A stretch of 36,871 nucleotides of DNA from an uncultured Acidimicrobiaceae bacterium. GTDB taxonomy: Bacteria; Actinomycetota; Acidimicrobiia; Acidimicrobiales; RAAP-2. The notes beneath the pieces were generated by a model. The model did not search any database and was not told the DNA's origin. It saw nothing but the letters and a program-made list of their open reading frames with translations. Location: positions 1-36,871 of the forward strand of contig CAIQOJ010000001.1 of assembly GCA_903873395.1 (NCBI GenBank). Reading direction: 5' to 3'. The translations under genes and the position numbers were made by a program. Of this stretch, positions 32,557 through 35,356 are shown in pieces. Numbering within the stretch: position 1 is the stretch's first letter; every line of letters begins with the position of its first letter.

Positions 32557-33813
32557 TCATCGGCACTCCACCAGACGACCGTCGGTCAGGTCGGCGTAGG
32601 TCTCCATCAACAGGTGAGCGGCGCGGGACCATGTGTACCGGCTGGCACGGCGGGCCGCATGGGCGGACAGCTGATCAGCCAGTGCCGGCTGGGCCAGGAT
32701 CTGGCGGATCCACCCGGCGTAGACCTCAGGGTCGGACTCCTCCACCAGATAGCCGGTGCGCCCGTGATCGACGAGGCTGCGCAGGCCACCGACATCCGAG
32801 GCCACCACCGGTGTGCCACAGGCCGCTGCCTCGAGAGCAACCAGGCCGAACGACTCCGAGCGGCTCGGCACCAGACACACGTCGGCAGCCCGGTAGAACG
32901 AGGAGAGGAGCTCGTGGGCTTGGGGGGGCACAAAGAGCACCCGGTCATCGAGGTTGAGATCCGAGACCAGTTGCGTCACCCGATCGACCTCGGCGGCACC
33001 GCGAGGTCCACTCGGCCCGCCGACAACCACCAGATGGGCGTCGGGATGATCGTTCCTGAGCGCAGCCAGCGCCTCCACGGCGACGCTGACGCCCTTGAGC
33101 GGTTGAATCCGACCCACGAACAGCAAGATCGGCCCGTCATCTGGCAGGTCCAACGCCCGACGGGCTTGGGGCCGGTCTCCCGGACCGAAGAAGGCATGGT
33201 CCACCCCCGGAGCGATGATGCGGATCCTGGAGGGATCGGCGCCGTAGAGGTCGGAGATCTGAGCAGCCTCCACCGAGCACGAGGCGAGCACGGCATCCGA
33301 GCAGCGGATGACGGCCGCCTCCGCCTCGGCCCGCAGATACCCAGCGTGGGACTCGACTTCCTCAGGGCTGGCCTCGGCCTTCACCCGGTCGAGTGTGTGG
33401 AACGTGGATACCAGAGGCAGGTCCAACTGATGCTTGATGGCGTGGCCAGCAAGGCCGCTGAGCCAGTAGTTGGCATGAATGGCGTCGAAGGGTGGATCGT
33501 CCTCGGATCCACCAGCTGCGTCCATCGACTTGAGGACTCCGTCGGCGAACTCGTCCACCACACCAGGCAGCGCCTCTTTGACGACCGGTGCCGGCGGGCC
33601 TGCGGGGACATGGTGGACCCGAAATCCCGGCTCGATGTTCACCGTGGGGGCGAGATCGTCCGACCAGGCTCGGGTGTAGACGTCGCAGATGACGCCGGAC
33701 CTGGCAAGAGCAGAGGACAACTCGCGTACGTAGACGTTCATGCCGCCGCCGTCTCCCGTGCCCGGTTGGGCCAAGGGAGAGGTATGGAGAGAAAGGACGG
33801 CCAGGCGCCTCAT
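32557..33813 (-). CDS. mshA: D-inositol-3-phosphate glycosyltransferase
   Basis: First enzyme of mycothiol synthesis, transferring GlcNAc from UDP-GlcNAc to inositol phosphate. 418 residues, GT4 family GT-B fold. N-terminal LHTSPLAQPGTGDGGGMNVYVREL is the MshA signature; HANYWLSGLAGHAIKH, VSTFHTLDRVKAE, LLFVGRIQPLKGVSVAVEAL and the nucleotide-sugar block SESFGLVALEAAACGTPVVAS are intact. A TAGGAT box nine bases before the ATG suggests a leaderless transcript and favours this start over a TTG six bases upstream. An XRE regulator gene ends 30 bases upstream. Confidence 0.93.
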   Translation of the reverse strand: MRRLAVLSLHTSPLAQPGTGDGGGMNVYVRELSSALARSGVICDVYTRAWSDDLAPTVNIEPGFRVHHVPAGPPAPVVKEALPGVVDEFADGVLKSMDAAGGSEDDPPFDAIHANYWLSGLAGHAIKHQLDLPLVSTFHTLDRVKAEASPEEVESHAGYLRAEAEAAVIRCSDAVLASCSVEAAQISDLYGADPSRIRIIAPGVDHAFFGPGDRPQARRALDLPDDGPILLFVGRIQPLKGVSVAVEALAALRNDHPDAHLVVVGGPSGPRGAAEVDRVTQLVSDLNLDDRVLFVPPQAHELLSSFYRAADVCLVPSRSESFGLVALEAAACGTPVVASDVGGLRSLVDHGRTGYLVEESDPEVYAGWIRQILAQPALADQLSAHAARRASRYTWSRAAHLLMETYADLTDGRLVECR

Positions 33814-33822
33814 GCGCAACCG

Positions 33823-33843: not shown

Positions 33844-34329
33844 TCAGCCGACGGTGGCTGTGGCTCCAGCATCCGTGGGTAGGTCGCTGTCGAGCGCACC
33901 GTGGAGCTCGTCATCCGCATCAGCAACCACCTGGTCCTCGTTCTCGTGCCGAAACGACAGATAGATGCGCAGAAGAGCCTGGCGCTGCTCTTCGGTCAGA
34001 TACCGGTCGGCAAAGATGTGACGGGTGAGATCCGTGTCGCCATCGGGGCGCTCGAGGATTCCCGCTTGGACGTAGAGCGTCTCGGCCGAGATGCGCAACG
34101 CCTTGGCGATCTGCTGAAGGATCTCGGCAGACGGACGGCGCAGGCCACGCTCGATCTGGCTCAGGTAGGGGTTGGAGATACCAGCCAACTCCGACAGGCG
34201 CCGCAGGGACAGCCGAGCGGAACTGCGCTGCTCACGGATGAACGAGCCGAGTTCATTGAAGCGCTCGGGTAGTTCCTTGACGAAGCGGTCACCCTCGGAG
34301 GCCGCGTCGCGGGCGGGCGCCGGTGTCAT
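33844..34329 (-). CDS. XRE-family helix-turn-helix regulator
   Basis: A 161-residue DNA-binding protein. The HTH (about 27-86) contains LGSFIREQRSSARLSLRRLSELAGISNPYLSQIERGLRRPSAEILQQIAKAL, a textbook XRE domain. The C-terminal part has HIFADRYLTEEQRQALLRIYLSF, a conserved tail shared with mycobacterial relatives, then an acidic end. The ATG overlaps the stop of the rsiG-like gene as ATGA, so the two are co-translated. Target genes are unknown; mshA immediately downstream is one candidate. Confidence 0.9.
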   Translation of the reverse strand: MTPAPARDAASEGDRFVKELPERFNELGSFIREQRSSARLSLRRLSELAGISNPYLSQIERGLRRPSAEILQQIAKALRISAETLYVQAGILERPDGDTDLTRHIFADRYLTEEQRQALLRIYLSFRHENEDQVVADADDELHGALDSDLPTDAGATATVG

Positions 34330-34874
34330 GACAGGAGGCCGTCGACCGATGCCTGGCCCGACTTGTGTCGGGCCACGAGCTCAGCCTGCAGCGTGTCGAT
34401 CCGCTCGTGCAGCCCACGGCGCTCGGTAGACACGCGGTTCTCCAGTTCACGCAGTTGCTCGACCAACTCGGCCAACTCGGTCTGGTCGAGGTTGGCAAGA
34501 CCACTCAGATTGTCGGCTCCCAAGATGGCATCGAGTTCCTGGGTCACTTCATCGAGCGATTCGGTGTTGGGCGAGTGCAGCACCGGGTTGCGACCCGGAC
34601 CTCCGATGGTCCGTCCGCCGCCTCCGGCCAAGATCTCCGGGAGGGCGTCGACGACACTGGACAGGTCGCGTCCTTCGGCATCGCCGGCGCTGTTGACATA
34701 GGCGAGCACGATGTCCAGGCGCCCCTGGACCAGTCGCCGGAGGTAGGAGAGTGCCGTTTCAGCTTCCTGACACTCGAAGCGCATGCGACGGATGTCGTCG
34801 AGCGACAACCCCCCGACATCGGCGAGGTAGTTCGGAGTAAGGATGCGGGCGAGGTCGTCCTGGAGCGTTGCCAT
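34326..34874 (-). CDS. rsiG: RsiG-like c-di-GMP-binding anti-sigma factor
   Basis: 182 residues from the ATG at 34874. Streptomyces RsiG holds the sigma factor WhiG inactive when bound to c-di-GMP, which is recognised by E-x3-S-x2-R-x3-Q-x3-D motifs on two coiled-coil helices. Here helix 1 has the full motif: E39, S43, R46, Q50, D54. Helix 2 has E145, S149, R152, H156, D160, with Gln replaced by His. A Gly-rich loop (about 83-105) and an acidic stretch join the helices. The start overlaps the sodX stop as TGATG and the stop overlaps the XRE start as ATGA. No WhiG/FliA-type sigma gene is in the window, so the partner is unknown. The motif match is seen directly; the regulatory role is inferred from the family. 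Confidence 0.85.
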   Translation of the reverse strand: MATLQDDLARILTPNYLADVGGLSLDDIRRMRFECQEAETALSYLRRLVQGRLDIVLAYVNSAGDAEGRDLSSVVDALPEILAGGGGRTIGGPGRNPVLHSPNTESLDEVTQELDAILGADNLSGLANLDQTELAELVEQLRELENRVSTERRGLHERIDTLQAELVARHKSGQASVDGLLS

Positions 34875-35356
34875 CACCCAGAAGCGTACCGCGGAGGCCA
34901 AGGTGCCCGGCTGCTCCGTCCCACCGGGGCGTAGCGATAGATGACGCGCCCGAGCAGAGCCCGTCGGGGAACCGCTCCAAAGGTGCGGCTATCCGTGCTG
35001 GCCTCGGCGGCATCACCAAGCACTGTGACCGTGCCAGCGGACTGGTCGATGTCGGCAACCCGCTTGACGAGAACCCTCATGGGCTCCCGTGGATCGTTGA
35101 GGGCCACCACATCTCCAACGGCTGGCCATCCAGGAGACCCCAGGGGTCGACGGAGGAGTAGCAGGCGGTCGCCGGGAAGCAGCGCCGGGGCCATCGAACC
35201 CCCCACCACCTCGACCCGACCCAGCGAACGGGCAAGCACCACCACCCCAAGTGAGAACAGCGCGGCGACACCACCGATGGTGATTCGAGCGGCCCAATGG
35301 TGCGAACGCGATCCACCTGGGCCGATCCTGGGTACAGTGATTGAGGCGTGACCCAC
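34874..35356 (-). CDS. sodX: Nickel-type superoxide dismutase maturation protease
   Basis: S26-type signal-peptidase-like enzyme that removes the N-terminal propeptide of Ni-SOD so that the nickel hook can form. 160 residues: one transmembrane helix (about 24-43), catalytic Ser54 in GGSMAPALLPGD, Lys98 in VLVKRV, then LGDAAEASTDSRTFGAVPR. The divergent neighbour is sodN, which confirms the role. The GTG at 35356 is the first start in frame but has no good ribosome binding site; if it is right, the 5' end of the gene contains the sodN -10 box. Confidence 0.92.
   Translation of the reverse strand: MGHASITVPRIGPGGSRSHHWAARITIGGVAALFSLGVVVLARSLGRVEVVGGSMAPALLPGDRLLLLRRPLGSPGWPAVGDVVALNDPREPMRVLVKRVADIDQSAGTVTVLGDAAEASTDSRTFGAVPRRALLGRVIYRYAPVGRSSRAPWPPRYASG
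35333..35338 (+). promoter_or_regulatory. Candidate -10 box for sodN
   Basis: TACAGT fits TAnnnT and would give a leader of about 40 bases that contains AGGAGG (35372-35377), eight bases before the sodN ATG. It lies inside the first codons of the divergent sodX gene. I saw no clear Nur-type nickel operator. Confidence 0.4.

Follow-up and report, generated by a model that had tools for sequence, protein, structure and literature searches.

The window analysed here is the whole 36,871-nucleotide stretch of DNA from an uncultured Acidimicrobiaceae bacterium. On its minus strand, rsiG lies between a signal peptidase-like gene and the gene of an XRE-type regulator, with a group 1 glycosyltransferase gene beyond the latter (Table 1). 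The genes are tightly joined. The stop of the Peptidase_S26 gene and the start of rsiG overlap by one base (TGATG), and the rsiG stop is overlapped by the ATG of the regulator (ATGA). The ATG at 34874 gives the product described here, and an alternative TTG start is possible at 34901. In 52 of 111 rsiG loci a homologue of the XRE-type regulator follows rsiG on the same strand, and in 58 of 111 a homologue of the glycosyltransferase, presumably MshA-like, does so; both counts include the window. The regulator is a candidate functional partner of RsiG.

Table 1. Genes and protein features at the rsiG locus (window coordinates)
Feature	Position	Strand	Remarks
Signal peptidase-like gene, directly upstream of rsiG	34874..35356	(-)	Peptidase_S26, Pfam 1.6e-14
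rsiG, c-di-GMP-dependent anti-sigma factor of WhiG (predicted activity), twin-motif	34326..34874	(-)	182 aa, ATG start
Long helix 25-63, alpha1 counterpart	34686..34802	(-)	AlphaFold2 model
Motif 1, E39-S43-R46-Q50-D54, canonical	34713..34760	(-)	inside model helix 25-63
Long helix 131-171, alpha5 counterpart	34362..34484	(-)	AlphaFold2 model
Motif 2, E145-S149-R152-H156-D160, His at the Gln position	34395..34442	(-)	inside model helix 131-171
XRE-type helix-turn-helix regulator, directly downstream of rsiG	33844..34329	(-)	HTH_3 8.3e-13
Group 1 glycosyltransferase	32557..33819	(-)	Glycos_transf_1 5e-43

The RsiG of the window matches the Pfam family RsiG (PF22802) with 99.4 bits (E-value 9.1e-29, cut-off 27). 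The closest solved protein is Streptomyces venezuelae RsiG (6pfj_T, 1.6e-14, residues 27-190); both comparisons used a 191-aa reading, and in both the homology spans the whole length. Rubrobacter radiotolerans RsiG matches the window protein at an E-value of about 9e-4 in a sequence search. The AlphaFold2 model (mean pLDDT 89, pTM 0.81) is an antiparallel coiled coil matching 6pfj and 6pfv, and a Foldseek search with it returned four chains at E <= 0.001, each an RsiG. The top-listed relatives (best 80 of 129) come from Acidimicrobiaceae or Acidimicrobiales metagenome assemblies. A sequence-only reading had proposed a twin-motif RsiG with the coiled-coil fold in a non-Streptomyces setting, and homology, predicted fold and relatives bear this out. 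The protein is a genuine and ordinary member of the known RsiG family, with the usual residue at the disputed site discussed below. A spurious open reading frame at 34326-34874 is ruled out by homology and fold.

Two motifs and the histidine of the second helix

Translation gives E39 TAL S43 YL R46 RLV Q50 GRL D54 for motif 1 and E145 NRV S149 TE R152 RGL H156 ERI D160 for motif 2. The first is exact and the second has Gln replaced by His at H156, just as the sequence-only reading had it. The protein thus has two E(X)3S(X)2R(X)3[Q/H](X)3D motifs, one per helix; a strict Q would fail motif 2, and the form with [Q/H] at the fourth position is the one written in PMC8325347 itself. When the residues of the protein were shuffled 20,000 times, one exact motif arose in 2 trials and a pair of Q/H motifs in none. 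The class of single-motif, homodimeric RsiGs is ruled out for this protein by the finding of two motifs.

The residue at the fourth position was compared across 111 RsiGs of the class, made up of the window, 30 loci and 80 further loci among the matches listed, with 184 genomes positive. The commonest pair for motif 1 and motif 2 is Q/H, as in the window (50 of 111), followed by Q/F (20), H/H (14), H/Q (13) and H/Y (10), with H/F (2), Q/Y (1) and Y/Q (1) rarer still. The Q/Q pair occurs in 0 of 111, each of these proteins having H, F or Y in at least one helix. The alignment and tree were extended to 165 rows with S. venezuelae RsiG and 53 proteins from the rest of the phylum. The latter derive from 70 loci (30 + 40) of 200 positive genomes, the better-scoring among the matches listed and biased to long frames; 17 of the 70 were left out of the tree, 16 with one motif found and the two-unit L310. 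Q/Q is present in 18 of these 53 rows, eight of them belonging to a Streptomyces-like family (f109).

In the 165 aligned rows the fourth position of motif 2 is the least conserved among the ten motif positions, with H in 73, Q in 34, F in 27, L in 13, Y in 11 and I in 4. The other positions are held closely. S is conserved in 165 rows for motif 1 and 163 for motif 2, R in 165 and 165, E in 138 and 162, and D in 147 and 153. On the tree, which was built quickly and leaves many forks unresolved, the fourth site changes 27 times in motif 2 (alpha5) and 13 times in motif 1 (alpha1).

The sequence-only reading had suggested that the protein might be an intermediate or might bind c-di-GMP differently. 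According to this alternative the His copy weakens or alters binding, and the protein is either half-degenerate or a step between single-motif and twin-motif RsiGs. The deviation of motif 2 from the strict signature and the excess of changes at its fourth site on the tree speak for it, but motif 2 retains its E, S, R and D. His is the commonest state of motif 2, in 50 + 14 of the 111 class rows counting those with Q or H in motif 1, and a genus mate (L114) with a 59% identical RsiG has the same Q/H pair. Since His and other residues are usual in motif 2 of the class, the substituted motif is the normal class state and not an intermediate. The tree consists of twin-motif rows only, so it places the window protein among these and not relative to single-motif RsiGs. 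Nor is the idea of differing binding supported, as a His-motif RsiG, that of Conexibacter, binds c-di-GMP with a Kd of 25 uM alone and 1.7 uM with WhiG (PMC8325347). A half-degenerate or intermediate protein is accordingly judged quite improbable. In the accessible text of PMC8325347, His is described as often replacing Gln in motif 1, as the sole exception there, and is argued to be able to make the same stacking contact. By analogy, H156 would most likely take the guanine-stacking role of Gln in motif 2.

A different arrangement emerged from L310 / L402 (G457:C2, ORF around 238.7 kb, - strand) and L288 (G515), where a 174-aa RsiG-like frame has two tandem alpha1-type units. Both units have H and are 49% identical to each other; a single-motif RsiG of a same-family genome is 67% and 52% identical to the two. 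This suggests that a single-motif RsiG was duplicated within its gene a second time, independently. Pfam RsiG matches number six in G457 and five in G412, and one or two in the other genomes listed; the multiple matches are possible RsiG paralogues.

WhiG in the same genome and across the class

A search of the genome for a WhiG-like sigma factor, the proposed partner, found one. Among four sigma hits a single one, at G000:C27, exceeds the FliA_WhiG cut-off (265.9 bits vs 189.6). Its best PDB match is S. venezuelae WhiG at 309 bits, with FliA at 152 bits. The residues K57, G61 and R62 through which S. venezuelae WhiG contacts c-di-GMP are retained as K/G/R. The same three are retained in 24 of 24 WhiG rows compared, two of which are the protein of this genome. 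Eight rows come from RsiG-negative genomes and all eight retain K/G/R, so these residues are no marker of RsiG partners. The gene beside whiG, recognised by eye, is presumably rpsB, encoding ribosomal protein S2. Local synteny of whiG-like genes is noted in the accessible part of a review (PMC4255298).

In a survey of 296 genomes of the class, RsiG was found in 184 and WhiG over the cut-off in 191. A strong WhiG match, defined as FliA_WhiG E < 1e-55, also yields 191 genomes. RsiG and a strong WhiG match occur together in 177 of the 296 genomes, RsiG only in 7, WhiG only in 14 and neither in 98; that is, the strong match is present in 177 of 184 RsiG-positive vs 14 of 112 RsiG-negative genomes. 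The association persists after dropping 42 genomes of one genus that have neither gene (Fisher 7e-35), a P value that, like the others for this co-occurrence, is too small because the genomes of a class are related and not independent. Within the window's family both genes are present in 2 genomes of its own genus and neither in 17 genomes of four other genera.

The coiled coil might instead belong to an anti-sigma factor that acts on another sigma factor, or one without c-di-GMP control. Three further sigma-70-type proteins are encoded in the genome, and 7 of the 184 RsiG genomes have no strong WhiG match, some of these assemblies being incomplete. Against this, no sigma factor of the genome other than WhiG exceeds the FliA_WhiG cut-off, WhiG retains the residues that contact c-di-GMP, RsiG and WhiG co-occur, and both RsiG motifs are kept, which makes a different partner or a ligand-free protein very improbable. 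The preferred reading, an RsiG-WhiG switch with a working second motif, draws on homology, predicted fold, the presence of WhiG and co-occurrence, with binding predicted from these; its probability is put at about 0.85.

Candidate WhiG promoters and a proposed switch

The genome has ten GGDEF genes, six of which also have EAL domains, so the means to make c-di-GMP are present. Type IV pilus genes include those for T2SSE-family ATPases, PilM and an N-methylated pilin, identified by Pfam, and pilC-, pilD- and more pilin-like frames recognised by eye. The flagellar protein FlhA has no match in the genome.

The sequence-only reading had called the targets of such a switch unknown. Candidates can now be named among type IV pilus and GGDEF genes from promoter-like sites, which narrows the question. 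The published consensus at N15 with <=2 mismatches gave 26 sites in the genome vs 34 for reversed-pattern controls, no excess. The exact consensus at N14-16 gave 35 sites in 22 genomes vs 24 reversed controls across 99 genomes of the order. The frames behind 30 of these exact sites were viewed by eye. Two, both in G334, lie before a pilin and a flagellin gene, both confirmed by Pfam, and G334 also has RsiG. At <=3 mismatches, sites were found in 3 of 16 upstream regions of the genome's own pilus, GGDEF, whiG and parA genes, and shuffles predict about 3.3; at the spacings examined, its own pilin genes lack a site even with 3 mismatches allowed. No WhiG-type site lies within 350 bp upstream of the rsiG, signal peptidase, regulator or glycosyltransferase genes, so there is no sign of autoregulation.

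Upstream of pilM, the pattern TAAA-N14-16-GCCGATAA was found within two mismatches in 5 of 11 genomes, and 1000 permuted patterns reach at most 2 of 11. Four of the five sites have N16 spacing. The sites occur in 5 of 10 RsiG-positive genomes with pilM, the other 5 having none upstream of this gene, and the one RsiG-negative genome has none. A refined pattern, T[AC]AAG-N15-GCCGAT[AG], was written after the pilM sites and the two G334 sites had been seen. With no excess at 3 mismatches, the promoter signal rests on this refined pattern.

About 197 kb of the genome's own sequence (394,646 strand-bases), comprising the surroundings of the pilus, GGDEF and whiG genes and the window, was scanned with the refined pattern and gave six matches. 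Four, on contigs C63, C81, C22 and C54, are upstream of GGDEF genes, 8-25 bases before a start, one is before an NlpC/P60 gene and one before no clear gene. One of the four GGDEF sites had been seen earlier as a 3-mismatch site, so three are independent of the making of the pattern. Exact sites are present in 3 of 10 GGDEF 5' windows; permuted patterns hit a single gene in 1 of 1000 cases and never more. The fourth GGDEF site (contig C54, position 119177) falls within the longest frame that can be read there, and an in-frame GTG follows it after 8 bases. The genome's own pilM has the refined pattern with one mismatch, 187 bp upstream. The exact site before the NlpC/P60 gene is 38 bases upstream of a secreted-looking protein (L393:113-1404; G000:C54:103112 onward).

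The surroundings of rsiG in the class, 1.66 Mb in all, contain 5 matches to the refined pattern; the mean for 60 permuted patterns is 0.4, but one of them gave 10 and another 3. When pilus or flagellin regions of relatives (four stretches, 45 kb) were scanned with a slightly looser pattern, five matches appeared, each upstream of pilM, pilin or flagellin genes. Four of these were previously known; downstream of the newly found one, in G244, a pilin begins 38 bases from the site. Candidate flagellar-type sites are enriched by position at GGDEF and pilM genes, but there is no genome-wide excess of the N15 consensus and none at 3 mismatches.

At high c-di-GMP, the RsiG motifs on the two antiparallel helices would hold a c-di-GMP dimer, and RsiG so armed would sequester WhiG, which is encoded elsewhere in the genome. 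Falling c-di-GMP would release WhiG. Free WhiG probably transcribes GGDEF/EAL and type IV pilus genes from the T[AC]AAG-N15-GCCGAT[AG] promoters, and since GGDEF/EAL genes would be among those transcribed, a feedback loop on c-di-GMP would close. Judging from the promoter-like sequences, type IV pili and c-di-GMP enzymes, and not spore formation, may be under the control of the switch. The balance tilts, on these sites, to a feedback switch that would serve type IV pili, DGC/PDE genes and a secreted wall hydrolase of the NlpC/P60 type; in a relative, flagellin would be included.

The switch could also operate as described while WhiG does not use the promoter-like sites and controls another regulon; this alternative bears on the regulon alone and partly coincides with the preferred reading. 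The missing genome-wide excess of the N15 consensus, the count of 35 exact N14-16 sites against 24 reversed controls in the order and the lack of excess at 3 mismatches speak for it. Against it, sites lie just before pilM, pilin, flagellin and GGDEF genes, either exceeding permuted patterns or with no other match in the vicinity, and Rubrobacter WhiG has predicted targets of the same kind (PMC8325347). A different regulon is therefore held to be unlikely, though it deserves serious weight. On the likeliest reading, type IV pili and c-di-GMP turnover are under the twin-motif RsiG switch, similarly to Rubrobacter, through promoters whose use is predicted.

Relation to known RsiG-WhiG systems

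In the RsiG family, c-di-GMP silences the sigma factor WhiG through RsiG, and the accessible text of PMC8325347 already records twin-motif RsiGs in three of four species of Acidimicrobiales. The window protein shares with these its order-level group and its architecture. The protein itself is expected, and the regulon predicted for Acidimicrobiia is what exceeds the known. In a literature search on RsiG and WhiG in Acidimicrobiia, with most subscription journals outside its range, the papers listed beyond PMC8325347 and PMC4255298 had titles on microbiomes. A Pfam search of a phylum sample found RsiG in 200 of 296 genomes. This proportion is higher than in a 2021 report (PMC8325347), which gave 135 homologues for 673 actinobacterial genomes; the two differ in sampling and search method. 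In its accessible part, the 2013 review (PMC4255298) suggested that WhiG acted early on in biofilm dispersal and called the roles of WhiG in motile simple actinobacteria unanalysed.

S. venezuelae RsiG (6pfj, 6pfv) has Q/Q motifs, whereas the window RsiG has Q/H. The proposed reading would also relax the family signature, the Gln of motif 2 being no constraint; if it is true, the fourth motif residue of alpha5 can drift freely, with Q, H, F, Y and L all allowed. The targets in S. venezuelae are whiH and whiI, whereas those predicted here are GGDEF and pilus genes.

R. radiotolerans RsiG (7lq2-7lq4) has the same motif in alpha1 as the window RsiG. It has a single motif and forms a homodimer, whereas the window protein is expected to be a twin-motif monomer. 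Type IV pilus and DGC/PDE genes are among the predicted and start-site-supported targets of Rubrobacter WhiG (PMC8325347), and the targets predicted in the window's genome resemble them. If the proposed regulon is true, the Rubrobacter-type T4P/DGC regulon recurs in a distant class with a twin-motif anti-sigma factor, which bears on the role of the switch before Streptomyces sporulation. Because Rubrobacter, with its single-motif RsiG, shares this kind of regulon, surface motility and c-di-GMP turnover would then be what the switch originally served, and Streptomyces sporulation would be a derived use of the RsiG-WhiG switch.
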